Positions 1,708 to 32,587 of a stretch of DNA of 64,000 bases are shown here, piece by piece. Both the position numbers and the translations under genes were made by a program. Each line of letters opens with the position of its first letter. Position 1 is the stretch's first letter. The stretch spans positions 1 through 64,000 of the forward strand of contig VFGZ01000030.1 of NCBI GenBank assembly GCA_009392215.1, written 5' to 3'. The notes below the pieces were generated by a model that searched no databases, was not told where the DNA came from, and saw only the letters and a list, made by a program, of their open reading frames with translations. Source of the DNA: SAR202 cluster bacterium. Lineage in GTDB: Bacteria; Chloroflexota; Dehalococcoidia; Lucifugimonadales; Lucifugimonadaceae.

Positions 1708-2697
1708 ATGTTTATTGGAAATGTGGAAGTAAAAGGTTTGGCACGCCTAGCCCCAATGGCAGGAATTTCTAATGCTGCCTACCGAATTATCGCGCGAGAG
1801 TGCGGCAGTGCTTTGACTACAAGCGAAGAAATCGATGCAACTGGACTCACTCGTAAGAATTCGAAAACCCGATACGATATCGCTAAGTACTTACCAGAAG
1901 AAAAGCCAATTGCCCTCCAAATATTAGGGTCTAACGCTGAGACACTCGTTCCAGGTGCCCAATGGTTGCAAGATCGAGGGGCGGATATCATCGACTTAAA
2001 CATGGGTTGTCCTGTTCCGAAAATTACTAAAACAGGCCGTGGGTCTGCGATGATGAGGGATGTGAAAAAGACATCCGAAATTTTAAAAGCTATGCGTAAG
2101 GTGATCACTGTTCCTTTCACCATTAAAATTCGCAGTGGATGGGATCAAGAGCACCTAAATGCAGTTGAAGTTTCGAAAATGGCAGAAGACATCGGGGTTG
2201 ACGCGATCACGGTTCATCCAAGAACCCGAGCCCAGCGATTTACCGGTCTTTCGACTTGGGACATGATTGCGCAGGTTGTCGACGCTGTGAGCATTCCCAT
2301 TACTGGAAATGGTGATGTTAAATCCATGTCTGATGCCCGCAAGATGCAGATGGCAACCGGGTGTCAGTCCGTCATGATTGGTAGAGCCGCTATTGGTAAG
2401 CCATGGATATTTGATGAAACCTTTGAGGATCTTTCACCTGAAGATAAATACGATTACCAAACGCGGGTTATTGATCGCCACATGCCACTAATCATGGAAC
2501 ATTTTCCTGAAAAAGTAGGGCTTATACAGATGCAACGACATCTATCCTGGTATGCAGGCGGTCGTGATCGTGTCAGGTCATTCAGGGTCGAGTTATTTGC
2601 GACACGGACTTACGATGAAGCTCGTAGCGTATTCGATCGTTATTGGGAATCAGTTAATCCCGCTGTAAGCAAACAGCCTCATTTAGTTGCTGTTTAA
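1708..2697 (+). CDS. dusB: tRNA-dihydrouridine synthase, DusB-like
   Basis: FMN-dependent enzyme that reduces uridines in the tRNA D-loop to dihydrouridine using NADPH. The 329-residue length is normal. Visible motifs in order: LAPMAGISNAAYR at the N-terminus, NMGCPVPK with the catalytic cysteine at C101, the KIRSGW strand near 140-145, HPRTRAQRFTG at 170-180 and GNGDV near 200-204 for FMN phosphate binding, then an all-alpha C-terminal tRNA-binding domain. The ATG at 1708 gives the expected N-terminus. The gene stands alone on the plus strand and converges on the sulfatase gene, sharing 4 bp at the 3' ends. The split between DusB and other bacterial Dus subfamilies is by overall similarity, so the exact uridine modified is inferred. 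Confidence 0.92.
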   Translation: MFIGNVEVKGLARLAPMAGISNAAYRIIARECGSALTTSEEIDATGLTRKNSKTRYDIAKYLPEEKPIALQILGSNAETLVPGAQWLQDRGADIIDLNMGCPVPKITKTGRGSAMMRDVKKTSEILKAMRKVITVPFTIKIRSGWDQEHLNAVEVSKMAEDIGVDAITVHPRTRAQRFTGLSTWDMIAQVVDAVSIPITGNGDVKSMSDARKMQMATGCQSVMIGRAAIGKPWIFDETFEDLSPEDKYDYQTRVIDRHMPLIMEHFPEKVGLIQMQRHLSWYAGGRDRVRSFRVELFATRTYDEARSVFDRYWESVNPAVSKQPHLVAV

Positions 2698-4175
2698 ACT
2701 GCCGGCAGGGGCATGTCGTCCCCTGTTTCGTCCTGCCATACCCTGATACGTGCACTCATTTCCCGGATTCGATCTCGATGTTCCTGAATATTGAACAGGT
2801 TATTTAATTCATAAGGATCACTATTTAGATCATAAAGTTCACATTGGTCGCCTGGAGATAAATTTAGCTTCCAGCGGTCTCCAGTGACCACACCTCGCCA
2901 TGGAACGGACACCATACGGTTGATTTCGGGTGAACCGAGATTTCGATCTCCCATCCCGTTCCACTGTATGAATACATCGTTGTGCGATAAATCTTTATCA
3001 CCTTCTAAAACCGACACTAAGGATTTGCCTTCCAAATGTTCAGGGATATCACTGCCCGACAAATCCAACAAGGTTGGAACTAGATCTATCTGTCCGACTG
3101 ACCCATCTATCCTCTGTTGCCCATCGTCATTTAGCCATGGCACATAAATGAGCAGTGGCACGTTTGATGCTTCTTCGTAAAGCGATCGCTTTTCGAGCAT
3201 TCCATGGTCGCCTGCCATCTCACCATGCTCACTAGTGAACACAATGATGGTGTTTTCAGCCTGTCCGCTTTTATCAAGTGAGTTGAAAATCTTTCCTATT
3301 TGATTGTCCACAACTGTGACGTTTGCGAAGTACTGAGCTCGAAGTTTTCTAAAACCTTCTTCGGTACTGGTGTCATGGTGATCACCACCAGCTGCTCCTA
3401 GTGGATTATTGCCACCATTCATGTAGAAATCAGACCTGAGTCGATTTACCAGTGAACCCGAATCTGGCCGTTTTCTGAATCCAGGACCTACTTCAATGTC
3501 TTTTGGATCGTAAAGATGGTTTAAAGGACCGGTATATGGTGGATGCGGTTCAAAGAAATTTACAAATAGCATCCATGGTTGATCCGCGTGGTTTCCTTTT
3601 GGATAATCCGATATGAAATTAGATGCAGTATGCCCTAGGAAACCTGCCTGTGTTTGTTCTTCGGTCAATTCAGCCCCACCAACCCAACCTTCGTAGGAGA
3701 CTTGCATCGATGGAGGATCAACGCCGTGATCGCGTAACCACTGGTTGTATGGAGCTTCTTGGTATCGATATTCTTTTCGAGTAATCCTCACTCGTTGGAA
3801 GTCTTCGACTGCTTCCCATTTGTCAAAACCGTGTTGTGCTGTCATATCATCACCGAGATGCCACTTACCCATGTGGGCGTTGTAGTACTCGCTTGCGATC
3901 ATGTCTCCAATAGTCGGGATGTCACGGCTAAGCGGGATATTATTGCGTTGTAGCCCGGTTGCATATGGGTAAAGGCCTGTCATGATCGAAGCCCGTGCTG
4001 GCGTACAGACGGGTTGGGTCACATAGGCGTTTTCGAATACAAAACTTTTCTTTGCAAGTTTGTCGAGATTAGGAGTTTTGATCCAGTTGTTGCCATATGC
4101 TCTCATCGAGTCTCGGCGCTGTTGGTCGGTCAGGATAAAAAGTATGTTTGGTTTACGATTTTCCATGGGTGTCAT
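2694..4175 (-). CDS. Sulfatase (arylsulfatase family, formylglycine type)
   Basis: Type I sulfatase that hydrolyses sulfate esters, 493 residues. The N-terminal KPNILFILTDQQ strand carries the first metal ligands. The formylglycine motif CTPAR is at C57-R61 within PVCTPARASIMTG, so the cysteine should need oxidation by a formylglycine-generating enzyme, which is not in this window. FTSEHGEMAGDHGMLEK in the centre is the second metal-binding stretch. No signal peptide is visible, so the enzyme looks cytoplasmic. Two starts are possible, ATG at 4175 or ATG at 4166, neither with a clear Shine-Dalgarno. The 3' end overlaps dusB by 4 bp in convergent orientation. A divergent cupin gene lies upstream. 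The substrate (sulfated sugar, choline sulfate or other) cannot be told from sequence. Confidence 0.9.
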   Translation of the reverse strand: MTPMENRKPNILFILTDQQRRDSMRAYGNNWIKTPNLDKLAKKSFVFENAYVTQPVCTPARASIMTGLYPYATGLQRNNIPLSRDIPTIGDMIASEYYNAHMGKWHLGDDMTAQHGFDKWEAVEDFQRVRITRKEYRYQEAPYNQWLRDHGVDPPSMQVSYEGWVGGAELTEEQTQAGFLGHTASNFISDYPKGNHADQPWMLFVNFFEPHPPYTGPLNHLYDPKDIEVGPGFRKRPDSGSLVNRLRSDFYMNGGNNPLGAAGGDHHDTSTEEGFRKLRAQYFANVTVVDNQIGKIFNSLDKSGQAENTIIVFTSEHGEMAGDHGMLEKRSLYEEASNVPLLIYVPWLNDDGQQRIDGSVGQIDLVPTLLDLSGSDIPEHLEGKSLVSVLEGDKDLSHNDVFIQWNGMGDRNLGSPEINRMVSVPWRGVVTGDRWKLNLSPGDQCELYDLNSDPYELNNLFNIQEHRDRIREMSARIRVWQDETGDDMPLPAV

Positions 4176-4426
4176 CCGCTGATAGGTGTTTTAATTTTAT
4201 GATTCCCATAAATATCTGAAACGGGAAATTACAATCATTGGTTATATTCAAACTACTAGATTTCATCGAAGGTTTTTGTCAGAAAATGGTACCGCACACC
4301 TTGCATGATAATTGCCAATGGTTGTAAAAAAATGATCATTGCGTTTGCAGTTTTACCATCAATTTGATGTTAGGAGTTAGAATTTCACTTAGGCGGGTTA
4401 TAAATATTCATACTCCGGAGATTCAT
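4176..4426. promoter_or_regulatory. Divergent intergenic region between sulfatase and cupin genes
   Basis: About 250 bases that must hold the promoters of both the sulfatase (minus) and the cupin gene (plus). The only structure I can point to is the perfect 10-bp palindrome AATGATCATT at 4331-4340. No convincing -35/-10 pair was recognised. Confidence 0.3.
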
Positions 4427-4813
4427 TTGACCAGTCAGTCTGAAATTACGTTCGAACCTTCCAATAAGAAACGCGAGTCTCGTCCTTGGGGATCGTATGA
4501 AATTTTGGTTAGTGGTTCTGGGTTCCAGACAAAGCGGTTAACGGTAAAAACAGAATCTCGTCTTTCATTGCAGTGGCACCGCCATCGTGACGAAACTTGG
4601 GTCGTAGCGCGTGGCACGGCAAAAGTCATACTCGGAGAGGAAGAGCACACTCTTGGTCGAGGGCAATCAATGTTTGTACCACGCAATACTCACCATAGGA
4701 TTGAAAATATTTCTTCAGTCGAACCATTGGAGATCATTGAAGTGCAGACTGGAGATTATATTGGTGAGGACGACATTGTTCGTTTAGAAGACGATTTTGG
4801 ACGCGCTGATTAA
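4427..4813 (+). CDS. Small cupin, mannose-6-phosphate isomerase type II (ManC C-terminal)-like
   Basis: Single cupin domain resembling the stand-alone C-terminal isomerase domain of ManC/type II phosphomannose isomerases, which interconvert mannose-6-phosphate and fructose-6-phosphate. Typical features are RPWGSYEIL near the N-terminus, WHRHRDETWVV carrying metal-binding histidines, GRGQSMFVPRNTHHRIEN, and EIIEVQTGDYIGEDDIVRLEDDFGR at the end, which is characteristic of the family. I chose TTG 4427 because GGAG lies 6 bases upstream and the resulting 128 residues match the usual length. The frame also allows TTG 4364 or ATG 4367, but neither has a ribosome site. No nucleotidyltransferase domain is attached. 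It ends 10 bases before the convergent enolase-family gene. The catalytic role is inferred. Confidence 0.8.
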   Translation: MTSQSEITFEPSNKKRESRPWGSYEILVSGSGFQTKRLTVKTESRLSLQWHRHRDETWVVARGTAKVILGEEEHTLGRGQSMFVPRNTHHRIENISSVEPLEIIEVQTGDYIGEDDIVRLEDDFGRAD

Positions 4814-4823
4814 CCGGATGACT

Positions 4824-5963
4824 CTATTTCAGTGCGACACTACCGTCCTCACGGATTGGGGCTGGCGCATTAGCGGGGTTAAATGGATGCATGGCGGGTG
4901 CTTTTTCGTTAAATAACACTCCTAGTCCTGGTTTTTCGGAAGGTGTATACCAGCCTCGTTCGAGTTTCATGATCTCGTCGGTCATATCGCGTCTAGGTGG
5001 CACTTCTTCCTCGACGGATTCTTGAACGTCCCACGATGGCGACGCGGTTCCAATAGCGATACATGCGGCTGTTGCGATAGGCCCTTGGAAATTGTGTGGG
5101 CAAATTTTAATGTGATGAGCTTCAGCAATCGTTGCGATTTTTTTAACGCCAGTGATTCCACCAGCTACAGCGATATCGGGTTTGAAGAATGCAGGTTTTG
5201 CCAGTTGAGCGTATTCACGGAACTCCCATATGCCGATGTTTCGTTCGCCTATCGCAAGTGGAAGTCGCATCTTTGCAGCTACTTCTCCCATTGCAACTAC
5301 CGAGTCGGGGACGATGGGATCTTCTATGAAGTAGGGCCTCAGTTTTGCGACTTCTTCGCAAAAGGCGATTGCTTCGTGTGGTTGCATGTTTCTGTGGATC
5401 TCGATTCCGACGTCGAAATCCCATCCAACGGTTTCCCGTACGGCTGAGACCATGTCGACTGCGAGGCCGATCATTTTTGTGTAGGTCAGTTCCGCCCAGT
5501 TTTTGGGCATTGGAGTGAACTTTAGTGCAGAGAAACCTTGGTCTAGTGCCTTTTTGGCTCCAATAGCGCATTCTTCAGGAGTGTCGCCACCGATTCCCTG
5601 AGCAATACCCCGAATTTTCTGGCGAAACTTTCCACCAAGTAAGTCCCAAATAGGAGCCTGAAGTCGCTTGCCCTTAATGTCCCAAAGCGCCATATCGATA
5701 GCACTAATCGCACCACCAATGCTGTTACCTCTAAACGCTGAGTTATAGCGCCAGAGATAGCTCCAAATATGTTCTATATCTCCGGCATCCATACCGATTA
5801 GCGCATCGGCAAATGCGTGGATTGTTTGTTCAGCAGCTTTTGGATACGACCAGTAACACGATTCTCCAATACCTTCGGTTCCGTCTTCAGTAGTGATTTT
5901 TACCACAAGGTATCGGTCCACAAAAAAAGTTTCGATCTTTGCAATATTCAAAATTCTTCTCAC
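4824..5963 (-). CDS. Enolase-superfamily dehydratase/racemase (MR/MLE family), paralogue 1
   Basis: Mandelate racemase/muconate lactonizing enzyme family, 379 residues: N-terminal capping domain (1-120) then a TIM barrel. Such enzymes abstract the alpha proton of a carboxylate held on Mg2+, commonly dehydrating acid sugars. Apparent active-site residues are E188 and H190 in IEIHRN, E214 in FIEDP, E240 in GER, and the D263/H290 dyad (KPD, PHN). The second barrel strand reads ALKFTP, so the KxK pair is absent, and the first metal ligand is Glu rather than Asp. This resembles the galactonate/mannonate dehydratase side of the family. Start GTG 5963. The Gfo/Idh/MocA gene lies upstream with a 45-bp gap and paralogue 2 beyond it, suggesting one minus-strand operon. 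The substrate is unknown. Confidence 0.88.
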   Translation of the reverse strand: MRRILNIAKIETFFVDRYLVVKITTEDGTEGIGESCYWSYPKAAEQTIHAFADALIGMDAGDIEHIWSYLWRYNSAFRGNSIGGAISAIDMALWDIKGKRLQAPIWDLLGGKFRQKIRGIAQGIGGDTPEECAIGAKKALDQGFSALKFTPMPKNWAELTYTKMIGLAVDMVSAVRETVGWDFDVGIEIHRNMQPHEAIAFCEEVAKLRPYFIEDPIVPDSVVAMGEVAAKMRLPLAIGERNIGIWEFREYAQLAKPAFFKPDIAVAGGITGVKKIATIAEAHHIKICPHNFQGPIATAACIAIGTASPSWDVQESVEEEVPPRRDMTDEIMKLERGWYTPSEKPGLGVLFNEKAPAMHPFNPANAPAPIREDGSVALK

Positions 5964-6008
5964 ATATGCCTGATGTATTTGTAACTAATTTTGGAGGTAA
6001 TAAAAAAT

Positions 6009-7259
6009 TTAAATGTTCCAATGGGCGTTAATGCTCGCTTCGTATTGGGCTGTCTCTTCGTTTTCGATTTCTTCAATGGTCACTGGGCGACCGAGTACTG
6101 ATGATTCTAAAGCTGCGTTACATACAGCTAGGTCCTTTCGACCGGTATATGCATCTACTTCAGGCACGGTGCCATCGGCTATACATTGACCTAGCTCATA
6201 GTATTCCAGAGCTACAAGAAATCGATCCGAATCTCCAGTGGGCCTGTTGTACGATCCAAGTCTGTCACTACCAAAAAGCCGGGCGGGTAGTTCATCCAGG
6301 TGAAAATCTGGAACGAGTTCCAGAACTTCATCACCGGATATCGTGCCGACACCATCTATAGTCACCGTCAACTCGTCACCCCTGCGGTTTTTTGCAGGAG
6401 TTATTGAACCCTTACTGCCGTAAATCATCCCGTATTGTGTTGCCTGGCCGTGTGCGGCATAAAACGAAGTCCATTGTCCAACTGCACCGCTCTTAAATTT
6501 GAGAGTAGAAATGACCATGTCTTCCGCATCTGCGTCGATCTCGTTGGGTACTTCATCTTTCCAGTGATCGTAGAAATCATGGACCCCTATGCGTTCACCC
6601 CGATATCGCTTAGGTTCCCATATTTTTGAAACTGCAAATACTTCTTCTATATCGCCTAGGTAGTACATCATCTGGTCAACGGTATGCACTCCGGCATCAA
6701 CAAAAATTCCACCAATATTTTTATAGTGTCGCCAAGGCAATATGATGATTTCTTTACCGCCTCCAGCTGATCCCAATAACATGCTATACGGGATACCGAT
6801 TACGCCTGAATCTAAAACGGCTTTGTTGAGACGACACATTGGGTCACGTCGTTCCTGCTCAGCCACGCTGAGTATCTTGCCGCTGCGTTTCCACGCATCG
6901 ATCACACGGTTACATCCTCGGATTGTTAGTGAAAGCGGTTTTTCACATAGGACGTTGTATCCGAGATCGAATGCCATCTCGGCGACCATATGATGGGATC
7001 CGGAATCGGTGGTGATATCTACTGCTTCAATATCTGGTCGTTTTTTTCGCATATCTTCCATTGAGGTGAAGACTTCGGGACGACTTCCGAGCATTTCTTC
7101 TGCTTTGTCGGCAAGATGAAGGGCGTTTTCTTTCCGGGTGTCACAAACGGCTACTAATTCAACGTTGGCCATACCACTTTCGTAAAGTGAACCTAAGGCA
7201 CGCAGGTGTCTGCCACCCATTCCTCCGGCACCTACTATTGCAATTGGAATAACAGTCAT
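6009..7259 (-). CDS. Gfo/Idh/MocA-family NAD(P)-dependent oxidoreductase
   Basis: Oxidoreductase of 416 residues that probably acts on a sugar, inositol or sugar acid. The N-terminal Rossmann fold opens with VGAGGMGGRHLRAL. The CEKPLS motif near residue 99 supplies the active-site lysine, and DAGVHTVDQMMYYLG near 172-186 supplies the conserved Asp/His. The C-terminal alpha/beta domain runs to the end. The ATG at 7259 is supported by AGGAG 7 bases upstream. It lies between two enolase-superfamily genes on the same strand, with gaps of 45 and 71 bp, so a shared pathway (oxidation of a sugar followed by dehydration of the acid) is likely but inferred. The protein is somewhat longer than the 330-390 residues typical of the family. 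Confidence 0.9.
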   Translation of the reverse strand: MTVIPIAIVGAGGMGGRHLRALGSLYESGMANVELVAVCDTRKENALHLADKAEEMLGSRPEVFTSMEDMRKKRPDIEAVDITTDSGSHHMVAEMAFDLGYNVLCEKPLSLTIRGCNRVIDAWKRSGKILSVAEQERRDPMCRLNKAVLDSGVIGIPYSMLLGSAGGGKEIIILPWRHYKNIGGIFVDAGVHTVDQMMYYLGDIEEVFAVSKIWEPKRYRGERIGVHDFYDHWKDEVPNEIDADAEDMVISTLKFKSGAVGQWTSFYAAHGQATQYGMIYGSKGSITPAKNRRGDELTVTIDGVGTISGDEVLELVPDFHLDELPARLFGSDRLGSYNRPTGDSDRFLVALEYYELGQCIADGTVPEVDAYTGRKDLAVCNAALESSVLGRPVTIEEIENEETAQYEASINAHWNI

Positions 7260-7330
7260 TGGTTTACTCCTGTCTTTTTTTGATTAGTTTTCCATTGAAA
7301 TTTACAAAACTTGGTAATTAGCTTCATGGT

Positions 7331-8464
7331 TTACCTGTCTTGGACACTGCCATCGAATCCAATAGGAGTATCGAGTACTTTTGGGTTCTCCGGTCCTGAC
7401 AGAGCGACTTCATTCAGTTCGATTCCGAGTCCCGGACCTTCTGGAACCATGAGATATCCGTCTACTAGTTTCAAAGGAGCTATTAACAGATCACTTTTTG
7501 GTGGCTCGGACTCACCGGTATACTCCTGTAGCGCAAAGTTAGGGATACAGGCATCGAGTTGGACACAAGCGGCTGTACTGACCGGTGAAAGCGGGTTGTG
7601 GGGTATTACTTTTACATGTTTTGCTTCTGCCATGGCGGAAACTTTTTTCGAGCCCGAGAGTCCTCCGCACAGACAGAGATCAGGTCGAATATATGACGTG
7701 GCATTTGCCTCTAAAAGCTGTTCATACTCAAAAATTGTTGTAAAACGCTCACCAGTGGCGATCGGGATATTGCACTGGTCGGCTACTTGAGCCATACGGG
7801 CGGGACTGTCCGGAAGCATTGGGTCTTCGTAGAAAAATGGATTGAACTGCTCAAGTCTACGACCGAGCCATATACTTTCCGCGGGAGCCATTTGCCGATG
7901 GATTTCGACGCAGATATCTGCGTCGCCCCCAACTGCTTCTTTGACGGCTCCGACTCGGTCTACCGCTTCATCTGCCCATTCCGTATACGATTTGTGAAGG
8001 TAATAATCAGGTGGGAATGGGGTGAATCGGACTGCGGTGAAGCCTTCTGCTACTGCACCTTTAGCACTCTCCACGAGCTCGTTTTTGGTTGTGCCACCGA
8101 CGTGCATGTAACAACGGACTTTGTCGCGTGTTTTACCACCCATTAGATCGTAGATCGGTACGCCTAATCGTTTGCCTTTGATGTCCCATAAAGCAATGTC
8201 AATTGCTGAAAGGGCGCCTTGAACGACTGATCCCATAAAGTGAGAAGAACGATACAACCACTGGTAGTGGTGCTCGATGTAATCAGGGTTTTTGCCTTTT
8301 AGATATTCTGCCATCGTGTCGACCATCGTTTTGGTTGGTCTTTGCCAGCCGTGGACTCCACCCTCACCGATTCCGACAGTACCGTCTTCGCAGTAGATGC
8401 GGATCAGTAACCACCGGTCCCAAAGTATCGTTTCGACTCGTTCGATTTTGGTTGAATCTGGCAT
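7331..8464 (-). CDS. Enolase-superfamily dehydratase/racemase (MR/MLE family), paralogue 2
   Basis: 377 residues, closely related in architecture to the gene at 4824-5963. Apparent catalytic residues: E187 and H189 in VEIHRQ, E213 in FYEDP, E239 in GER, and the D262/H289 pair in RPD and PHN. The second barrel strand reads AVRFTPFP, so there is no KxK pair. GALSAIDIALWDIKGKRLG and the GIGE capping-domain motif are both present. The ATG at 8464 gives a normal N-terminus, but the ribosome site is weak. It is probably the first gene of the minus-strand group 8464-4824. Its upstream region is shared divergently with the D-aminoacylase-like gene and contains two inverted repeats. An acid-sugar dehydratase role is family inference. 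Confidence 0.88.
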   Translation of the reverse strand: MPDSTKIERVETILWDRWLLIRIYCEDGTVGIGEGGVHGWQRPTKTMVDTMAEYLKGKNPDYIEHHYQWLYRSSHFMGSVVQGALSAIDIALWDIKGKRLGVPIYDLMGGKTRDKVRCYMHVGGTTKNELVESAKGAVAEGFTAVRFTPFPPDYYLHKSYTEWADEAVDRVGAVKEAVGGDADICVEIHRQMAPAESIWLGRRLEQFNPFFYEDPMLPDSPARMAQVADQCNIPIATGERFTTIFEYEQLLEANATSYIRPDLCLCGGLSGSKKVSAMAEAKHVKVIPHNPLSPVSTAACVQLDACIPNFALQEYTGESEPPKSDLLIAPLKLVDGYLMVPEGPGLGIELNEVALSGPENPKVLDTPIGFDGSVQDR

Positions 8465-8533
8465 GTAGAGATAATCCGTATTTTTAATATATGCCCCGAA
8501 AATTCAGGTACATTCAAGCTGAAATGATTTGTT

Positions 8534-8555
8534 ATTCGAGAAGGTATCCTCGAAT
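8534..8555. promoter_or_regulatory. Inverted repeat, candidate operator in divergent promoter region
   Basis: ATTCGAG (8534-8540) and CTCGAAT (8549-8555) form perfect 7-bp arms around an 8-base spacer. They lie between the divergent genes starting at 8464 (minus) and 8696 (plus). The spacing and symmetry fit a dimeric repressor site. No regulator gene is adjacent, so this is a suggestion only. Confidence 0.3.
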
Positions 8556-8607
8556 CGAATCAGATTCAACATCAATTTGGTTTGTGCTGAGCTTATAGAG
8601 GAGTTAT

Positions 8608-8622
8608 AACCGCGTAACGGTT
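8608..8622. promoter_or_regulatory. Short inverted repeat upstream of the D-aminoacylase-like gene
   Basis: AACCG (8608-8612) and CGGTT (8618-8622) are 5-bp arms around CGTAA, in the same divergent intergenic region as the larger repeat at 8534-8555. It could be an operator half or simply chance. Confidence 0.2.
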
Positions 8623-8695
8623 CTAAGTGTCGTAAATTTGGCGTTTCACTAACTCAAGATTCGACAATGTTTTGATAAGTAGAGAGAAGTATTAA

Positions 8696-10195
8696 GTGCT
8701 TGATCTAATAATAAAAGGCGCAACGGTAATAGATGGATCTGGTTCTCAAGGAGTTGTACTTGATGTTGGAATTGCAGGTGATCGTATTGTCTCGATCGCT
8801 TCGAGTATCGGTGTTGAATCAGTTGAGATTCTTGATGCGCGTGGTCTAACTTTAGCCCCAGGATTTATCGATGTTCATTCTCATGATGATTTTCATGTCT
8901 TGATCGAGCCTGAAGTTCGCCACAATATCTTGCAGGGCATTACAACCGCAATTGTCGGTAACTGCGGATTTGGTGCAGCTGGGTCAGCCGCCGGGAAGAT
9001 CCAGATGAAGGCGATTAACGAGCCGAGCATCGAACTTCCAGACTGGACTGGCTATGCTGGTTACCTTGAACAGGTCGATAAGACGTCACCTGTTTTGAAC
9101 ATTGCAGCGTTGATCGGTCATCACACTGCTCGGCGAGAGGCGATGGGGGGTGTGGCAGATCGAACACCAACCAAGACTGAGCTCGCATCGATGATCGCTA
9201 ACGTAACCGAGGGTATGGAAGCCGGGGCTGTTGGGATGTCTACTGGATTGGTATACGAGCCGGGTCGATACGCTAGGACAGAGGAAGTTGTTTCATTATC
9301 TAAAGTGGTTGGACGATACGGCGGACTTTACGTTTCACACATGCGTGATGAGGGTGGAGGATTACTCGACTCTGTAAGAGAAACTCTTCATATTGGAGAA
9401 GCAAGCGGTGCTGGTGTTCAGGTCTCACATCATAAATCTGTGGGCAAAACGAACTGGGGGATGGTTACTCATTCACTCGAAATAATTGAAGACGCTGTTG
9501 CCAGAGGCTTGGATGTAACTGCCGACCAGTACCCGTATACCGCTCGTAGCACAATGTTGTTTGCTCTCGTACAAAACGGAACCTTCAATGATGCCTTAGA
9601 TGGACCTATGGGTAAGTCTGAGCCTTCGGAAGTGCTTTTGTGCTCGGTTCCTGGGTATGAGGATTTTGAAGGTCGAACACTCCAAAGCTTTGTTGAAGAA
9701 TTTGATTTGCCAGGAGAAGAAGCTGCAAATAAATTATTGAGTGACTACTCTGATTCCATTCTTGTAGCGGCATTCGGGATGGATGAAGGCGATATTCGCA
9801 TGGTCATGGCTCATGATTCAACGATGATCGGTACGGATGGACTTGATCGTGGTTCCAAGCCCCACCCGCGTGCTTGGGGAACATATCCGAGAATATTAGG
9901 AAAGTATGTGAGAGAAGAGGGCGTGATCTCTCTCGAGAATGCAATATATAAGATGACGCACATGCCTGCATACAAGTTTGGAATTGTAAACAGAGGATTA
10001 ATAAAAGAAGGTTATTTTGCCGATTTAGTGATATTCAATCCTGATACGGTTCTTGATCTTGCGACCTATCAGAATTCCCGTATTGGCCCATCAGGAATGC
10101 CCCATGTAATCGTGAATGGTGAGTTCGCCGTTCGTGATGGGAATCATCTAGGGACTAGGTCAGGTCGCGCCTTGCGGAGAGGTGAAATTTATTAA
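8696..10195 (+). CDS. N-acyl-D-amino-acid deacylase / D-aminoacylase-like amidohydrolase
   Basis: Zinc amidohydrolase of 499 residues that should remove acyl groups from N-acyl-D-amino acids or a similar amide. The N-terminal beta-sandwich (LIIKGATVIDGSG) leads into the barrel. The metal site is visible as H61-S-H63 in DVHSHDD, C90 in GNCGFG, a His in VSHMRDEG, a His pair in VSHHKS, and the catalytic Asp in MAHDSTMIGTDG. A RGEIY-type C-terminus closes the sandwich. The GTG start at 8696 follows AGAGAGAAG. It opens a plus-strand run with two enolase-superfamily genes and an epimerase, so the deacylation product may feed those enzymes; that link is inferred. Dihydropyrimidinase-type function is less likely because the Cys and double-His pattern is that of D-aminoacylase. 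Confidence 0.88.
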   Translation: MLDLIIKGATVIDGSGSQGVVLDVGIAGDRIVSIASSIGVESVEILDARGLTLAPGFIDVHSHDDFHVLIEPEVRHNILQGITTAIVGNCGFGAAGSAAGKIQMKAINEPSIELPDWTGYAGYLEQVDKTSPVLNIAALIGHHTARREAMGGVADRTPTKTELASMIANVTEGMEAGAVGMSTGLVYEPGRYARTEEVVSLSKVVGRYGGLYVSHMRDEGGGLLDSVRETLHIGEASGAGVQVSHHKSVGKTNWGMVTHSLEIIEDAVARGLDVTADQYPYTARSTMLFALVQNGTFNDALDGPMGKSEPSEVLLCSVPGYEDFEGRTLQSFVEEFDLPGEEAANKLLSDYSDSILVAAFGMDEGDIRMVMAHDSTMIGTDGLDRGSKPHPRAWGTYPRILGKYVREEGVISLENAIYKMTHMPAYKFGIVNRGLIKEGYFADLVIFNPDTVLDLATYQNSRIGPSGMPHVIVNGEFAVRDGNHLGTRSGRALRRGEIY

Positions 10196-10265
10196 TCCAG
10201 TTGAGTACGCCCAGAGTAGGGAATATCAGGACAATCATTGGACTTCCAGCGAAGACAAGGAAATC

Positions 10266-11456
10266 ATGGCTTCAGAAATAATTGAGTCGGTTTTTTTAAC
10301 TCCGATCCCGTCAAGCTACCGAAAAGAATTAGGCAAAAATGCATATATTGACAATATTGGCATGCAACGCTTGGAATGGGTAGTTTGTGCGCGTAGTTCG
10401 AGTGGAGCCGAAGGGATATCGATTGCCAATCGGTTGATTCGAGAAGGCAGTGTTGAAAGTGCGCTCGCTTACATTAAAAGCGCTTTATTGGGTCGTGAAG
10501 TAGATCAGTTGCTTGAAATTTCCGACGGGGTTGTAACCGGAGCTGGCCCAGGTATGGATCGCTGGTACCGGCGCAACGGTTGGATGACAATATTGGCATT
10601 TGATTTGGTAGGTAAGGTTCAAGGGGTGTCGGCTATCGACCTTCTTGGTGGGCGAAAACACGATTCTGTTCCCGCTTATGACACTACTCTCTATTTTCAG
10701 GATTTTCTCAATCCAGCAAAAGGTGCAGAACAGGTTGCAGATGAGGCATCTCAGGCGGTAAGTGATGGTTGGCGGGCGGTTAAATTGAAAATAGGAAGAG
10801 GTGGGCGGTGGATGTTACCCGATGCAGGGATGCGGCGAGATATTGATGTTGTGCTTGGTGTGCGTGAAGCGGTTGCCTCTGACGTGAAAATTTATGTTGA
10901 TGCCAACTTCGGATATGACAATCATTTCGATTTGCTTGATCGATTTATAAAGGAAGTTACTCCGGCAGATATTTTTTGGTTTGAGGAAATGATTACCCAT
11001 AGTGTCGACGGTTACAAGCGGATGCGAGAAATTCTTGCTAAGTATGGCTCTGGGGCACTGTTAACTTGTGGAGAAGTGGATCGGGATCCCATCTCAGAAA
11101 TTTTCCAGGATTTGATTGATGGAGGTTTGATTGACGGTTATCAACCGGATATTGTTGGGCACGGCTATCTGGGCTGGCTGGATGTAGAGCGTCAACTCTC
11201 AGGCACTGGGGTTAGAACTATTCCTCATAACTTCGGAAATGGATCTTTTGGCACTTATGCGAGCATCGTGTGGGGTGCTACTTCAGAGACGTATGTTTCT
11301 TTAGAGGATGAACGAGCGGTTCCTTGTTATCTGACTGCGCTGCCTGAATTTACTGACGGTGCCTACGCTTTACCGAATGGAACGGGTTTAGGGGTGGATA
11401 TCGATTATTCCAGTTACGCTGCTTATTCCAAGCACGAAAACAGGATGGTGGTGTAA
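10266..11456 (+). CDS. Enolase-superfamily enzyme (MR-like, KxK type), paralogue 3
   Basis: MR/MLE-family barrel enzyme, 396 residues from ATG 10266. I prefer this start because AAGGA lies 4 bases upstream and the N-terminus then lines up with its tandem paralogue. The frame also allows GTG 10182, but its GGAGA is only 1 base away. Apparent active-site residues (from 10266): K173-x-K175 in VKLKIG, D212-A-N214 in VDANFGY, E240 in FEEM, E270 in CGE, D295 in QPD and H321 in PHN. Having both the KxK pair and the His/Asp dyad is the mandelate-racemase arrangement, unlike paralogues 1 and 2. The stop is 2 bases before the next gene, so translation is probably coupled. The substrate is unknown. Confidence 0.85.
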   Translation: MASEIIESVFLTPIPSSYRKELGKNAYIDNIGMQRLEWVVCARSSSGAEGISIANRLIREGSVESALAYIKSALLGREVDQLLEISDGVVTGAGPGMDRWYRRNGWMTILAFDLVGKVQGVSAIDLLGGRKHDSVPAYDTTLYFQDFLNPAKGAEQVADEASQAVSDGWRAVKLKIGRGGRWMLPDAGMRRDIDVVLGVREAVASDVKIYVDANFGYDNHFDLLDRFIKEVTPADIFWFEEMITHSVDGYKRMREILAKYGSGALLTCGEVDRDPISEIFQDLIDGGLIDGYQPDIVGHGYLGWLDVERQLSGTGVRTIPHNFGNGSFGTYASIVWGATSETYVSLEDERAVPCYLTALPEFTDGAYALPNGTGLGVDIDYSSYAAYSKHENRMVV

Positions 11457-11458
11457 AC

Positions 11459-12682
11459 ATGTCGGATCGAATTCTTGATAGCCACGTTATAAATAAAGTC
11501 ACAATTACACCTGTTGAAACCTATTTTGGCTCCCCGGGTAGAGGCAGGATCATTGGGCGTAATGCCAAGAGCGAGAATTATGGACATAATCAGCGCGAAT
11601 GGTTGCTTCAAATAATGACTAATTCAGGATTGAAGGGTCTGAGTAATGCTCGGCCTGGCATGAATGGAGGAGCAATAGTTGACCTGTATAACGACTTTCA
11701 AGATCTAATTGGACAACCATTATCTGCGTTCTTTACGGTTTCGGCTGGGCGAGTGATAGGTATTAACCCTAGATGGTCCGATCTGATAGATCGTTACGGT
11801 TTTTTGGATGTCGCTCTTTTTGATTTGATAGGACGGGCTCTGGAAAAGCCTGTCTACAGTCTGCTCGGCGATAAAATGCGTGGCCAAATTGAAAGCTATG
11901 ATTCCACTTTATATTTTCAAGATTTAGTGAATCCATCCGAAGGTGCCAATGCTGTAGCGATCGAGGCTATGGAAGCTGTTGCAAAAGGTTGGCGTGCTTT
12001 GAAGCTCAAACTGGGACGGCCCGGAAAATGGTTTGAGCCACATGCTGGCACATACCGAGACATTGAAGTAGTGGAAACTGTTCGTAGAGCTGTAGGTGAT
12101 GACATAAAGATTCTCGTCGATGCAAATAATGGCTATGATGGCCGACTTGACCTTCTTCGAGAGTTTGTAATAGGGATCAGTGATCTCAATGTTATGTGGA
12201 TGGAAGAGATGGTCACTGAGAATCTTGCAGATTATCGAAAGCTAAGGGACTGGCGAGATAAATACACTCCTCAAACCATGATTGTCGATGGTGAAGGCCA
12301 TAAGGGACGCCAGACGATTTATTGGCAATTGATGGAGCAAGGGCTACTCGATGCGATACAGCCCGACATGCTTCACATGGGGTTTTGGAAGTATCATGTT
12401 CTCGCTCGAGATATCGAGGAGTCAGGCAATAATACGCTTGTAGCTCCTCATAACTACAACGCTGCGTACCTAGGTTTGAGAGCCGATATTCAATTCGGCG
12501 CAGCCACAACGAGATTCGTAATCGCCGAAGACTCGACACTGGATTTCGAGTTGTATCAGGGGCCGGAATACGTTTTTAATGACGGTGCATATGATGTGCC
12601 TGATTCGCCAGGATTAGCGGTGAGTATTGATCAGGAAATGTATGAGCGTGTTTACAAAAAACATGAAACTTTAATTATTTAA
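11459..12682 (+). CDS. Enolase-superfamily enzyme (MR-like, KxK type), paralogue 4
   Basis: 407 residues and clearly a tandem homologue of the preceding gene: both share YDxTLYFQD, EGAN/KGAE, a KLKxGR strand and PHN-x-x-x-x. Apparent catalytic residues are K182-x-K184, D221-A-N223, E249 in MEEM, E279 in DGEG, D303 in QPD and H331 in PHN. Both a lysine and a His/Asp base are therefore present, as in racemases that work on both faces of a substrate, although dehydratases also have this layout. The N-terminus is about ten residues longer than in paralogue 3. Start ATG 11459, 2 bases after the previous stop; the nearby G-rich stretch is a weak ribosome site. An NAD-dependent epimerase follows 29 bases downstream. 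Confidence 0.86.
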   Translation: MSDRILDSHVINKVTITPVETYFGSPGRGRIIGRNAKSENYGHNQREWLLQIMTNSGLKGLSNARPGMNGGAIVDLYNDFQDLIGQPLSAFFTVSAGRVIGINPRWSDLIDRYGFLDVALFDLIGRALEKPVYSLLGDKMRGQIESYDSTLYFQDLVNPSEGANAVAIEAMEAVAKGWRALKLKLGRPGKWFEPHAGTYRDIEVVETVRRAVGDDIKILVDANNGYDGRLDLLREFVIGISDLNVMWMEEMVTENLADYRKLRDWRDKYTPQTMIVDGEGHKGRQTIYWQLMEQGLLDAIQPDMLHMGFWKYHVLARDIEESGNNTLVAPHNYNAAYLGLRADIQFGAATTRFVIAEDSTLDFELYQGPEYVFNDGAYDVPDSPGLAVSIDQEMYERVYKKHETLII

Positions 12683-12711
12683 GCGGGTTAACCAATCTAG
12701 GAAATTCATTC

Positions 12712-13746
12712 ATGCTCAAAGTACTAATAACAGGTGTTACAGGTCGAGTTGGCGCAAATGTAGCCCAGAATTTTTTAAACCGTGGATACGATGTTACCGG
12801 GCTGGTATGGCCAGGGGATAGGCAGATAGAGAAAATGAAAGCTATAGGTGCTGACATTTTAGAAGGTGACCTTGCTAGTTCTGCCGACGTGAATGCCGCT
12901 GTGGATGGCCAACAGGTAATTATTCACCTTGGCGCTGCTTTTCAGGCTGGTGGACCGTTCACTCCCGAACAATATTTTGACACCAACGTCAAAGGTACGT
13001 TCAATGTGCTCGAGGCTTCTAAGAATCTCGGAGATCATCTAAAGCACGTATTAATTACGAGTACTGATGCCACGATGTTCAAATACCCCGAGGAAGGAAT
13101 ATCTGAGCCCATTGCGGAGGATTCCCTGCCACTGTCTACCACAGATTGGTACGGCTACTCTAAAGTTTTGTGCGAGAGTTTATTGCACCGATATCACGCT
13201 CAAGACAATCTTCCAGGCACTATTATTCGGTTTGCTAATGTCTGGGGTGCTGGTGAAATTTTAAAGTTTGGGCAGTTCCACCTGAGTACTTTCCTCAAGC
13301 AATTTGAAAGCCGCACTGATCCTGCGGGTGAGGCTACTTTCAAAATTCTTAAACACGAGTATGACCGCAGTGATGGTGGATCTCGGTTTATCGTTGCGAG
13401 GGACAGAAACGGTCGATCGTGGAAGAAGCATCAAATCGAGGTTCGAGATATTGTTCATGGATATGAACAAGCAGTATGTGAGCCTGCGACTTTTGGAAAT
13501 GTTTACCAGCTTGGCTCAAAGGAACCGTTTACCTGGGAGGTACTCGTTCCTTATATTTCTGAGAAGACTGGGATTCCTTATTCTACTGTCGATCTTCCTA
13601 TGAATCCTACTTTTTATGAGTATGATCTTTCAGCGGCCCAAAAAGATTTTGGGTATGCTCCCAGTTTGTCGGTATTTGAAATGGTTGATGAGGCGATTAG
13701 ATACAATAAAGAGGGTGGGGGAGGAATAGTTCCGACGAACGTTTGA
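12712..13746 (+). CDS. NAD-dependent epimerase/dehydratase (extended SDR)
   Basis: 344-residue extended short-chain dehydrogenase of the GalE-like type. The Rossmann motif TGVTGRVG is at residues 7-14. The catalytic set is S117/T118 in ITSTDA and Y147-x-x-x-K151 in YGYSK, so the active site is intact. The C-terminal substrate domain (about 190-340) is typical of nucleotide-sugar or sugar epimerases and lactone-forming dehydrogenases. ATG 12712 follows AGGA at a 9-base spacing. It is the last gene of the plus-strand run that starts at 8696 and probably belongs to the same pathway; uronate or aldose dehydrogenases of this fold would suit the acid-sugar context. It converges on the B-box membrane protein gene with a 31-bp gap. 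Confidence 0.88.
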   Translation: MLKVLITGVTGRVGANVAQNFLNRGYDVTGLVWPGDRQIEKMKAIGADILEGDLASSADVNAAVDGQQVIIHLGAAFQAGGPFTPEQYFDTNVKGTFNVLEASKNLGDHLKHVLITSTDATMFKYPEEGISEPIAEDSLPLSTTDWYGYSKVLCESLLHRYHAQDNLPGTIIRFANVWGAGEILKFGQFHLSTFLKQFESRTDPAGEATFKILKHEYDRSDGGSRFIVARDRNGRSWKKHQIEVRDIVHGYEQAVCEPATFGNVYQLGSKEPFTWEVLVPYISEKTGIPYSTVDLPMNPTFYEYDLSAAQKDFGYAPSLSVFEMVDEAIRYNKEGGGGIVPTNV

Positions 13747-28648: not shown

Positions 28649-30397
28649 TTATTGTTGCAATTCTGTTTGTTTCTGCATTTTTGACCTGAGTATTTTTGTT
28701 GCATTGCGGTCGATCTTGTTTTCGCCTTCGGATATAACCACGCCATATTTGCTTTTTGCCGCTTGAATTGACACCCGGTCATCAATCACGTCATCCAGCA
28801 CCCTGGAAGGATCTCGTTCTATCGGGTTACCCCATCCACCACCACCGGCCATTTTATGGCGGATCACTCCATTGCTAGGTAATTCGACTTGTGCGAGTGT
28901 GGGCAGTATCTTTTCCTCATGACCCGGATTAAGAATATTCATCGAGGGTGATCCGCTTGATCCTCCCTGCAGTCCATATGGGGGGAATTTCCTTTTGTCT
29001 GAGCGGAGTTGAAGAGTAGCTTTCTCGCCGATATTGGTGATCTGTTTGACATACGATTGCGCTCCCCTGAATTTACCCGCACCGCCGGAATCCTGAATTA
29101 GCGCGTATTCATCCACAACGATCGGGTTTTCAACTTCGAGAATTTCTACTGGTGAACCGGCTAGGTTGGATGCCGGGTGAGAAACGCCCTCTGATCCATC
29201 GCTTTTTGGGCCACCACCACGAGCTCCTCCGAAAAAATCAACCAGTGCGTAAGGGCTACCATCAGATCGGGTTCCTCCGATGCTGATCAGTGTATTACCA
29301 CCTTCTCCATCCGCCGGGACTCTATCTGGCATTGCCTGAGCCAGTGCGCCCAGGACGGCGTCCATGGTACGGAATCCTGTGATCCCTCTGGCAGCGACCG
29401 GGGCAGGGTGTACCGGGTTTACGACGGTGCCCTCAGGTACGCTTATGTGTATCGGTCGGTGGTAGCCGGCTGCATTTGGTATATCGGGGTCCATGATTAG
29501 TCTTATGGCACCGTAGATGGCAGCGCGTGTAAATGGTATCGGGGAGTTAATCCCTGCTGGTACCTGGGGAGAAGACCCGCCGAGGTCGACAAATATTTCA
29601 TCTCCCTCTATTTTAATTTTTACAGCGATTTTGACCGGTCCTTCTTTGATGTTATCCGCATCAATGAAATCTTCAAATTCGAACGTTCCATCCGGTAAAG
29701 CTTTGATTTCGCTGCGGGCACGCTGTTCACTGTAGTTAAGGAGAGAGTCGAAGTATTCGGTGAGATTGTCTGCACCATATCTGTCGATTAGCTCAAGTAC
29801 AGCGCGTTCTCCTATATCGCATGCGGCAAGCTGTGATCTCATGTCACCTCGTACCTGGATCGGCAGCCTGACGTTGGTAGCGATGAAATCGAAAACAGCT
29901 TCGTTTGGCTCACCTGCATCGTACAGTTTAGAAGTTGGAATTCTTAGCCCTTCCTGGTAGATCTCAGTTGACTCTGTTGAGTTGCTGCCAGGTACCAGTC
30001 CACCTATGTCAGCCTGGTGGGCTACGACTCCGACGAATCCACGCAGGGTGTCTGTCGCAAATATGGGTTTGATGATATAGACGTCTGGTAGATGGATGCC
30101 TCCGGATGTATATGGGTCATTTAAAATAAATACATCACCTGGTTTGATACGGTTATCGAACTTGGTCAGTACAGAGTTGATGGCTGCGGGAAATGAACCA
30201 AGGTGCAGCATGATCGTAAGACCCTGGGCAATGACCTGTCCGTCTGCTGCGCAAAATGCGGTTGAATAGTCCAGAGCGTCCCTTACTACTCCCGAGTAGG
30301 CTGTTCGCATTACAGTAATGGCCATTTCGTCCACCATCGAATCGAGACCATTCCGAACGACCTCAAATGTAATGGGATCTATCTGATCGTTAATCAA
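28649..30397 (-). CDS. Hydantoinase B / 5-oxoprolinase-like subunit
   Basis: HyuB-type subunit of 582 residues, partner of HyuA in ATP-dependent opening of hydantoins, 5-oxoproline or, in related complexes, in carboxylation of ketones. Recognisable stretches are DPITFEVVRNGLDSMVDEM, RTAYSGVVRDALDYSTAFC, FILNDPYTSGGIHLPDV near the N-terminus, and the HKMAGGGGWGNP loop near the C-terminus. ATG 30397 lies inside the end of hyuA, an 8-bp overlap, so the two are translationally coupled. It converges with the M81 gene. Which substrate is used cannot be told from sequence; the acetone carboxylase option is less likely without a gamma subunit nearby. Confidence 0.92.
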   Translation of the reverse strand: MINDQIDPITFEVVRNGLDSMVDEMAITVMRTAYSGVVRDALDYSTAFCAADGQVIAQGLTIMLHLGSFPAAINSVLTKFDNRIKPGDVFILNDPYTSGGIHLPDVYIIKPIFATDTLRGFVGVVAHQADIGGLVPGSNSTESTEIYQEGLRIPTSKLYDAGEPNEAVFDFIATNVRLPIQVRGDMRSQLAACDIGERAVLELIDRYGADNLTEYFDSLLNYSEQRARSEIKALPDGTFEFEDFIDADNIKEGPVKIAVKIKIEGDEIFVDLGGSSPQVPAGINSPIPFTRAAIYGAIRLIMDPDIPNAAGYHRPIHISVPEGTVVNPVHPAPVAARGITGFRTMDAVLGALAQAMPDRVPADGEGGNTLISIGGTRSDGSPYALVDFFGGARGGGPKSDGSEGVSHPASNLAGSPVEILEVENPIVVDEYALIQDSGGAGKFRGAQSYVKQITNIGEKATLQLRSDKRKFPPYGLQGGSSGSPSMNILNPGHEEKILPTLAQVELPSNGVIRHKMAGGGGWGNPIERDPSRVLDDVIDDRVSIQAAKSKYGVVISEGENKIDRNATKILRSKMQKQTELQQ

Positions 30398-32510
30398 GTT
30401 TCACTTCCAGATCTGTATTGATCATGATGATGTTGCCTGTTTCGTCGATATGAACTGATGTGTCTGGAGGAACCAGTGTAGTTGAGTCATACTCCTCGAT
30501 TATTAAAGGGCCAGAAGTGACTGAGGTTGTAAGTCTTCCTCGATCAATCACTGGTGTCAGCATCCATCCGTGCTGTTTACCGAAATAGGCGTTTCTGGGT
30601 GGTTTTTTATCTTCTGATTCATTCACTGACTTGGGCACTATTCTGTCTGAATCGATCCTGTAAGTGGATCTGATTGTGACAAGATCGACTGGTTCATCCG
30701 ATGCGCGTCGTCCGTATGTTCGTTCGTGTTCGATGTGGAATCTTTCAACGATGAAATTGGCCAGATCATCATCCGGTCTGGCGTTCGCATTTACAGTCAG
30801 TTCATATGCCTGACCCCGATATCGCAGATCGGCTGTTCTTGACCAGGAGCCAATTACATCCTGCCCCAGGTCTTCGGTTCTTAGCCTTTGGATTGATGAC
30901 GACTCAAGTTCATTAAAGGCGTTGATAATTTTGTCCCCACCCTCGCTTATGGGATCAGTGATCATTGTTCTTGAGAAGCCGTATTCAGGTAATGCTTCTA
31001 GTAGTCCGAGTGCCGAAAATACACCGGGAGACGCGGGAACGATGATTTGTCTAATACCAAGCGATCGGGCCATTTCGGCTGCGTGAAGTGGCCCACTGCC
31101 GCCGAACGCCATCAATGTGAACTCTCTCGGGTCGCGCCCCCTGTATGTTGTTACTGACTTGATCGCTCTGATCATCGTAGTGTTTGCTACAGCGTAAACC
31201 CCGTAAGCTGCATCATTTGTTTCCAGTTTGAGATGCTTCGCTGCCGAGCGGTTGAGAGCTACTTTCGCTGCTTCGGAATTAACACTGACTGTTCCGCCGG
31301 CTATTGATGTTGGATTAATGTACCCAAGCACCACGTTAGCGTCGGTGACTGTCGCCTCTGTTCCACCTTGGCTATAGCAAGCCGGTCCTGGTTTTGCTCC
31401 CGCTGATTGAGGTCCTACTCTCAAAGATCCTCCGGGATCTACCCGTACGATACTTCCTCCTCCTGCCCCTACCTCAGCAATATCAATTACGGGCAGTTTT
31501 AGAGCGTGACCCCGGCCTTTGACCAGGCGGTTAGAAAGCTGAATACCTGCGCCGACTTCATATTCAGTTGTCAGGCTGGGCTTGCCCTGTTCAATCAAAG
31601 ATGCCTTGGCCGTTGTACCGCCCATGTCAAACGTGATCACGTCCTTCAGCCCAATTCTGTCTGCAAGGCGGATGGCTTCAACTACGCCGGCCGCAGGGCC
31701 CGATTCGATGATCCGTGCCGGAGAACGACGAGCCGCAGCATAGGACATAACACCACCATTCGATTGCATGATCGAAATTGGCACCGCCATGTTTGCATGG
31801 TCAAGGCGTTTTTGCATTGACTCCAAGTAACTGTCGACAATCGGACCAATGTAAGAATTGATTACCGTTGTGCTTGTGCGCTCGTATTCTCTAATTTCTG
31901 GTAGTACGTCGATTGATCCGCTTACATATAAATTCGGAAAGCGATTCTTTACCGCTTCAACAACTTTGCGTTCATGTATCGGATTAGCGTATGAGTGAAG
32001 GAGACATATAGCGATGGCTTCAGGTTGCAGCTGTTCCAGTTTATCCAGCACGGATTCTACCGAGACATCATCGAGTGGTTGCCTGACCGAACCATCCGGC
32101 ATGATTCGCTCGATTACTTCGAATCTGTGTCGACGCTGTACCAGCGGTTTGGGTGGAGTGTAGTCCAGCGAAAACAGATCTGGGAATCGCAATCGACGAA
32201 ATTCTAAAACGTCTCTGAACCCTCTGGTGGTCACCAGTGCAGTTCGTGCTCCCTGGTTCTCGAGGATAGCGTTTGTAGCAACCGTTGTTCCGTGAATAAT
32301 TTCGGAGATCAGATCGGAGTTGAGTTTGTTATCTGAAAGAAACGCATCCAGACCTTCCACAATACCTCGTGAGAAATCTTCCACAGTGCTCGGTACTTTT
32401 TGTACAGAGTAATTACCATCAGACCTCAACATAACGAGGTCGGTAAACGTTCCACCAATGTCAGCCCCCACTCTTATTTGGTCTTTAGTGGTGGACTTGC
32501 GCGATTTCAA
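30390..32510 (-). CDS. Hydantoinase A / 5-oxoprolinase-like ATPase subunit
   Basis: HyuA-type subunit with an actin-like ATPase fold, 706 residues. The phosphate-binding motif VGADIGGTFTDLVM is at 14-27, HGTTVATNAILE near 90-101, FDMGGTTAK near 295-303 and FGGSGPLHAAEMA near 460-472. It phosphorylates or activates the cyclic amide for ring opening by HyuB. Start TTG 32510 has GAGGA about 9 bases upstream. It overlaps hyuB by 8 bp. A D-threonine-aldolase-like PLP enzyme gene lies 77 bp upstream on the same strand and may share the transcript. Length and motifs are normal. Confidence 0.92.
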   Translation of the reverse strand: MKSRKSTTKDQIRVGADIGGTFTDLVMLRSDGNYSVQKVPSTVEDFSRGIVEGLDAFLSDNKLNSDLISEIIHGTTVATNAILENQGARTALVTTRGFRDVLEFRRLRFPDLFSLDYTPPKPLVQRRHRFEVIERIMPDGSVRQPLDDVSVESVLDKLEQLQPEAIAICLLHSYANPIHERKVVEAVKNRFPNLYVSGSIDVLPEIREYERTSTTVINSYIGPIVDSYLESMQKRLDHANMAVPISIMQSNGGVMSYAAARRSPARIIESGPAAGVVEAIRLADRIGLKDVITFDMGGTTAKASLIEQGKPSLTTEYEVGAGIQLSNRLVKGRGHALKLPVIDIAEVGAGGGSIVRVDPGGSLRVGPQSAGAKPGPACYSQGGTEATVTDANVVLGYINPTSIAGGTVSVNSEAAKVALNRSAAKHLKLETNDAAYGVYAVANTTMIRAIKSVTTYRGRDPREFTLMAFGGSGPLHAAEMARSLGIRQIIVPASPGVFSALGLLEALPEYGFSRTMITDPISEGGDKIINAFNELESSSIQRLRTEDLGQDVIGSWSRTADLRYRGQAYELTVNANARPDDDLANFIVERFHIEHERTYGRRASDEPVDLVTIRSTYRIDSDRIVPKSVNESEDKKPPRNAYFGKQHGWMLTPVIDRGRLTTSVTSGPLIIEEYDSTTLVPPDTSVHIDETGNIIMINTDLEVKLD

Positions 32511-32587
32511 TCGAATTAATCCTCATTATCGATTTGAGAGTGCATGATCGAATAGGCACATTGATCAATAGACTCTAAAACTAAGTG

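Follow-up and report, generated by a model that had tools for sequence, protein, structure and literature searches.

A conserved, modular gene island of SAR202 group I bacteria with a predicted role in the breakdown of acid sugars and N-acyl-D-amino acids

Bacteria of SAR202 group I, which are widespread in the ocean, show a published expansion of paralogues of the MR/MLE family (COG4948), Candidatus Lucifugimonas marina included (PMC6946804, PMC10444878). The counts published for group I genomes range from 4 to 75 MR/MLE genes (PMC6946804); strain JH545 of L. marina, which responds to fuconate, rhamnonate and related compounds, has 80, and group I has the highest share among prokaryotes (PMC10444878). 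Substrates are known for hardly any of these paralogues. Among the enzymes described elsewhere, the D-galacturonate dehydratases of Geobacillus and Microscilla give 5-keto-4-deoxy-galacturonate (PMC6353982), and in the subtype V amidohydrolases one Cys and two His are the metal ligands, an Asp is catalytic, and Lys, Tyr, Ser and Arg anchor the acetamido group and the alpha-carboxylate (PMC12017989). Here we describe a gene island at positions 4824-13746 of a 64,000-nucleotide stretch of a SAR202 cluster bacterium (the window; assembly GCA_009392215.1, contig VFGZ01000030.1, positions 1 to 64,000), in which MR/MLE genes stand next to a D-aminoacylase homologue. No description of the locus was found in PMC6946804 or PMC10444878; the words aminoacylase and galacturonate are absent from both texts.

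The island is real, conserved and built of separable catabolic modules. Its genes form two divergent operons, C-B-A on the minus strand (4824-8464) and D-E-F-G on the plus strand (8696-13746), in which A, C, E and F belong to the MR/MLE family, B to Gfo/Idh/MocA, D to the amidohydrolases and G to the NAD-dependent epimerases (Table 1). Since these families score far above the Pfam cut-offs, the genes are not artefacts. The initial annotation of this DNA had listed four MR/MLE enzymes within 9 kb, two of them on the minus strand, of E-x-H type without KxK, flanking a Gfo/Idh enzyme, and two in tandem on the plus strand, of KxK/DxN type, together with a D-aminoacylase and an epimerase; gene calls, Pfam and the active-site residues bear out this list, E and F having an Asp/His dyad as well. 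On balance we favor the view that this is a catabolic island of SAR202 group I that grew stepwise around the core dehydratase gene C, with two divergent operons sharing one promoter region, and that it serves the breakdown of acid sugars and N-acyl-D-amino acids.

Table 1. Genes and putative promoters of the island and of its sulfatase-side edge
Feature	Position	Strand	Basis
A, MR/MLE, GalD-like dehydratase	4824-5963	-	PF13378 163.6 bits; PRK14017 255 of 311; best PDB 3rr1
B, Gfo/Idh/MocA oxidoreductase	6009-7259	-	PF01408 75.9 bits
C, MR/MLE, GalD-like dehydratase	7331-8464	-	PRK14017 304.7 of 311 bits; best PDB 3rr1
Putative promoter towards C-B-A, TTGAAT-N17-TACCTT	8541-8569	-	Phylogenetic footprint, 16 genus genomes
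Putative promoter towards D-E-F-G, TTGTGC-N17-TATAAC	8582-8610	+	Phylogenetic footprint, 16 genus genomes
D, subtype V amidohydrolase, D-aminoacylase homologue (N-acyl-D-amino acid deacylase)	8696-10195	+	PF07969; PDB 1m7j 318 bits
E, MR/MLE, KxK/DxN type, galacturonate-dehydratase-like	10266-11456	+	PF13378 93.2 bits; best PDB 3n4f; AlphaFold2 model
F, MR/MLE, KxK/DxN type, sister of E	11459-12682	+	PF13378 111.3 bits; best PDB 3n4f 129.8 bits
G, NAD-dependent epimerase/dehydratase-type short-chain dehydrogenase/reductase (SDR)	12712-13746	+	PF01370 96.2 bits; best PDB 4id9 104 bits
Sulfatase (PF00884 with SGSH_C), conserved island-edge gene	2694-4175	-	Pfam 166.8 bits; adjoins A or C in most genus members
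Cupin open reading frame, mannose-6-phosphate isomerase C-terminal type (PF01050)	4364-4813	+	Pfam 127.4 bits; like-sized open reading frame there in relatives

The window's genome is SAR202 group I and congeneric with Candidatus Lucifugimonas. Its assembly (1.81 Mb, 84.8% complete) has 58 MR/MLE genes, two of them partial, and with this count it ranks, in the genus of Lucifugimonas JH1073, among the group I genomes with exceptionally many; the island is one instance of the published expansion. Four MR/MLE genes in 9 kb are unexceptional here, because the assembly has at least eight tandem arrays besides its high total of 58, and because contig C29 of the same genome carries four inside 10 kb. 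The density of these genes was therefore rejected as evidence.

Conservation was followed through a family set of 76 genomes in 12 genera (G041-G054 denote genome assemblies and g2, g3, g5, g7 and g9-g12 other genera). The gene order Dus-sulfatase-A-B-C / D-E-F-G-h179-PlsY-PHP-YmdB-Rny is maintained across most of the genus, with the island at a fixed site beside plsY-ymdB-rny. Candidatus Lucifugimonas marina JH1073 (CP046147.1, G041), of the window's own genus, has the whole block in this position too. Counting the window's own, the genus has 19 assemblies, and C and D are divergent neighbors in 17 of them; the exceptions are G049 and G054, where contig breaks separate the two genes. The most widespread part is C, with orthologues in 66 of the 76 family genomes and in all 12 genera (66-100% identity). 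It lies beside the same housekeeping genes in g2, g3, g5, g9 and g10, and G adjoins it in g2 and g9. This position of C suggests that D-E-F may have been inserted between C and G, and that A-B may have joined C from its opposite side.

The modules also occur apart. The A-B pair is found without D-G in several other genera (B with 76-86% identity), C and D are divergent neighbors without A, B, E and F in g7, and E-F stands without D in g11, g12 and one Poribacteria bin. In g11 and g12 the E-F neighborhood is a sugar-acid context, containing G and a zinc alcohol dehydrogenase and, in g11, also a UxuA-like protein. Another member of that family, a UxuA-like TIM-barrel protein, is encoded in the window at 37766-38746 (minus strand); the one adjoining E-F is in a g11 genome (L098). 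A class-wide draw of 294 genomes returned E only from family members, and beyond the family E-F was found only in the Poribacteria bin (L079, JAJDUM010000125.1), where the pair has 61-63% identity; this is either horizontal transfer or a mis-binned contig.

Within the genus, E and F were lost or broken jointly in four relatives that retain C and D. In G046 both are gone and D directly abuts G; in G045 only the first quarter of E is left, fused to the end of F; G042 has only sulfatase-C-D-h179. In G043 (L091) E has two stops and F has one, each where relatives have Glu and all confined to these two genes, C, D and G being intact; they may mean either that function was lost recently or that the sequence is faulty, as three nonsense changes in a draft assembly could be errors. 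The joint loss implies that E and F are a functional unit and suggests that the two proteins may act in a single complex. Because A-B, E-F and C-D are each found separately, the island consists of stacked modules and not of one pathway, and neither the two linked pathways nor the one unusual substrate combination that the initial annotation had envisaged is borne out. The refuting condition that it had named, neighbors not conserved in relatives or paralogues in unrelated known clades, comes out mixed: the neighbors are conserved within the genus and only in part beyond it.

D has the residues of a D-aminoacylase: Cys90, His215 and His245, Asp381, and Lys247, Tyr187, Ser285 and Arg392 are invariant in nine sequences. 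In g10 it adjoins a pyridoxal phosphate (PLP) enzyme resembling D-Ser-dehydratase and BhcC, with an oligopeptide-type transporter also present, and its neighborhood in g7 includes amidases and an ammonia lyase of DgaE type. These partners favor a polar or beta-hydroxy N-acyl-D-amino acid as the substrate of D, which one being uncertain; this assignment is tentative. In the window, hydantoinase B, hydantoinase A and a D-Ser-dehydratase/BhcC-like PLP enzyme lie in a row at 28649-33685 (minus strand), and a relative of this PLP enzyme is the one that abuts the D orthologue in g10.

An N-acetyl-hexosaminate is chemically an N-acyl-D-amino acid, and one such compound, N-acetyl-glucosaminate, loses its acetyl group in marine bacteria through OngB, a relative of D-aminoacylase (PMC9537276, PMC12017989). 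A single linked pathway for N-acyl amino-sugar acids would join the acid-sugar and the amide genes: D would deacetylate an N-acetyl-hexosaminate, and C, aided by a DgaE-type ammonia lyase encoded elsewhere, would take the resulting amino or neutral sugar acids. The genome does have six genes of DgaE-family (SelA-like) ammonia lyases (contigs C39, C26, C19 and C51), three lying no more than 2 kb from an MR/MLE gene, but the window's island contains none, in g10 the partners of D are an oligopeptide-type transporter and a PLP enzyme for D-amino acids, and at the position of the OngB-specific Ser292 D has Thr286, as is typical of the amino-acid-specific D-aminoacylases (PMC12017989). We consider such a linked pathway unlikely.

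The 231-bp region between C and D was aligned over 16 genomes of the genus. In a footprint at 8538-8613, 28 of the 76 columns are invariant, vs 3 of 155 outside it, and the median pairwise identity is 0.70 vs 0.35 and 0.23 in the flanks; a seventeenth genome, G042, retains the ACAAGATC and GTTATAAC blocks. One reading of the footprint is a pair of sigma-70-like promoters placed back to back, each with a 17-bp spacer and with their -35 boxes 12 bp apart. Because a generic consensus scan of 8300-8850 calls no site, these putative promoters rest on conservation. In the C-D intergenic regions of g7 the TATAAC towards D recurs and the remainder of the footprint does not, and the same promoter layout was not found elsewhere in about 450 kb of the window's genome. 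The conserved footprint makes co-control of the two operons likely, as the initial annotation had suggested from their divergent arrangement around 8465-8695; no regulator of this putative co-control was found.

A further reading would make C-D an ancient pair under common regulation, a core for sugar acids that contain nitrogen, in which D deacylates a hexosaminic-acid-like D-amino acid and C dehydrates the matching sugar acid. It would be a SAR202 group I route distinct from the Ong pathway of Pseudoalteromonas, with the DgaE-type lyases elsewhere in the genome; we regard it as unlikely. Equally doubtful is that unrelated catabolic genes, sharing neither regulation nor function, gathered by chance at a permissive site: the modules separate in other genera, the content of the site differs between genera, and clusters are to be expected where MR/MLE genes are so frequent, but the order is the same across the genus, the core of the C-D intergenic region is far better conserved than its flanks, and E and F were lost together as a unit would be.

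The favored view of a stepwise-grown catabolic island also draws on the active sites, which were read from an alignment of all MR/MLE paralogues of the window's genome. A, C, E and F score above the cut-off of PF13378 and have three acidic metal ligands each; the capping domain PF02746 is above its cut-off in A and C, slightly below it in F and undetected in E, whose whole predicted fold nevertheless matches MR/MLE structures. A has K-x-T and C has R-x-T in place of KxK; both have E-x-H on the third barrel strand, two further Glu ligands and an Asp/His dyad, so that the strand-3 acid-x-His and the Asp/His base dyad of D-galactonate dehydratase are present in both (alignment to 3rr1), although both stay below the curated cut-off (PRK14017, 311 bits). 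A and C are not recent tandem duplicates, since both are closer to other paralogues of the genome (46.6% and 49% identity) than to one another (40%).

E and F have KxK, DxN, two further Glu ligands and an Asp/His dyad, as does the D-galacturonate dehydratase of the Geobacillus type, and are mutually closest paralogues (33.5% identity; next 24%). The AlphaFold2 model of E (pLDDT 90.3) has the fold of that dehydratase as well: its nearest folds are 3qpe, 3v5c and 3vcc (TM about 0.83), and the top 14 matches are all D-galacturonate dehydratase before the next family drops to TM about 0.7. The start of E was set at ATG 10266 and not at GTG 10182, which would give 424 amino acids, because the alignment with the orthologues begins only at about residue 24-34, upstream of which the orthologues contain stop codons. 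The initial annotation had asked whether the paralogues fall in unrelated, well-characterized clades; A, C, E and F belong to uncharacterized clades instead, beside two characterized families. Its broad call of acid-sugar and amide chemistry agrees with the nearest relatives, GalD for A and C, galacturonate dehydratase for E and F, and a D-aminoacylase for D.

Racemization has been proposed as the role of the SAR202 group I expansion (Saw et al. 2020, PMC6946804), so that the MR/MLE enzymes might mainly be racemases or epimerases that unlock chiral diversity, with D cleaving the D-form of racemized N-acyl amino acids. This reading is improbable: E and F do have bases on both faces (KxK and the Asp/His dyad), but dehydratases are the closest structures for which an activity is named, and A and C, without KxK, lack a second base, which makes simple racemization unlikely for them. 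Moreover, the known N-acyl amino acid racemases belong to the MLE subgroup and do not have the MR-type active site.

For the island that grew by modules we propose the following functions. The modules would have been added stepwise round C at the fixed site beside plsY-ymdB-rny. A and C are most likely dehydratases of aldonic acids that yield 2-keto-3-deoxy acids, and B may be the NAD-dependent sugar dehydrogenase that supplies A. For E and F the most likely reaction is the dehydration of hexuronates, with 5-keto-4-deoxy-uronates as the products, G being a candidate NAD-dependent dehydrogenase or epimerase for the sugars of E and F. The N-acyl-D-amino acid that D would hydrolyze is probably of a polar or beta-hydroxy kind. 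All these products would feed into the non-phosphorylative routes that have been put forward for the clade. The likely role thus lies at the periphery of metabolism, in the non-phosphorylative breakdown of uronic acids, aldonic acids and N-acyl-D-amino acids. What we observe are the genes present, their catalytic residues, the conservation and separability of the modules and the promoter footprint; the substrates, the direction of the reactions and the use of each gene set in growth are what we infer. That acid-sugar dehydratases are the nearest structures for all four MR/MLE enzymes speaks for it. Against it count that A to G all score below any curated single-function cut-off (D, for example, with 183.5 of 340 for PRK09061, its best curated amidohydrolase model), that the enzymes have low identity to characterized ones (E, for instance, only about 23-24% to galacturonate dehydratase in the fold alignment), that no transporter, aldolase, kinase or regulator gene lies inside the island, and that the presence and absence calls rest partly on incomplete draft assemblies.

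At the sulfatase side, the cupin open reading frame is an addition to the gene list of the initial annotation. In L. marina (L086) an extra GMC oxidoreductase and a GNAT acetyltransferase lie by the cupin, between the sulfatase and A, and open reading frames of matching size occupy this place in L089.

The locus leaves the general picture of the clade unchanged. It illustrates how an island can grow by addition of modules next to a core gene, and it offers testable assignments, E/F on hexuronates and D on N-acyl-D-amino acids, in a genus with cultured isolates.

Compared with D-galactonate dehydratase (DgoD/GalD; 3rr1, PRK14017), A and C have there their best structural match and share the two further Glu ligands and the Asp/His dyad; they differ in the first metal ligand, which is Glu and not Asp (E-x-H for D-x-H), and in strand 2, with K-x-T or R-x-T and not K-x-N. 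For E and F the best sequence match, and for E also the best fold match, is the D-galacturonate dehydratase of Geobacillus sp. Y412MC10 (3n4f, 3qpe, 3v5c, 3vcc), from which they differ in being a tandem, divergent pair and not a single gene. D shares with D-aminoacylase (1m7j) and OngB (9kb1) the subtype V metal site and the anchors for the acetamido group and the alpha-carboxylate; at OngB Gln298 and its specificity loop D has Val-Gln-Asn, which is cleanly like neither group, the alignment being ambiguous there. With the published COG4948 expansion the island has in common the clade, the enzyme family and its site in JH1073; the pathway reconstructions published for that expansion treat fucose, rhamnose and ascorbate.

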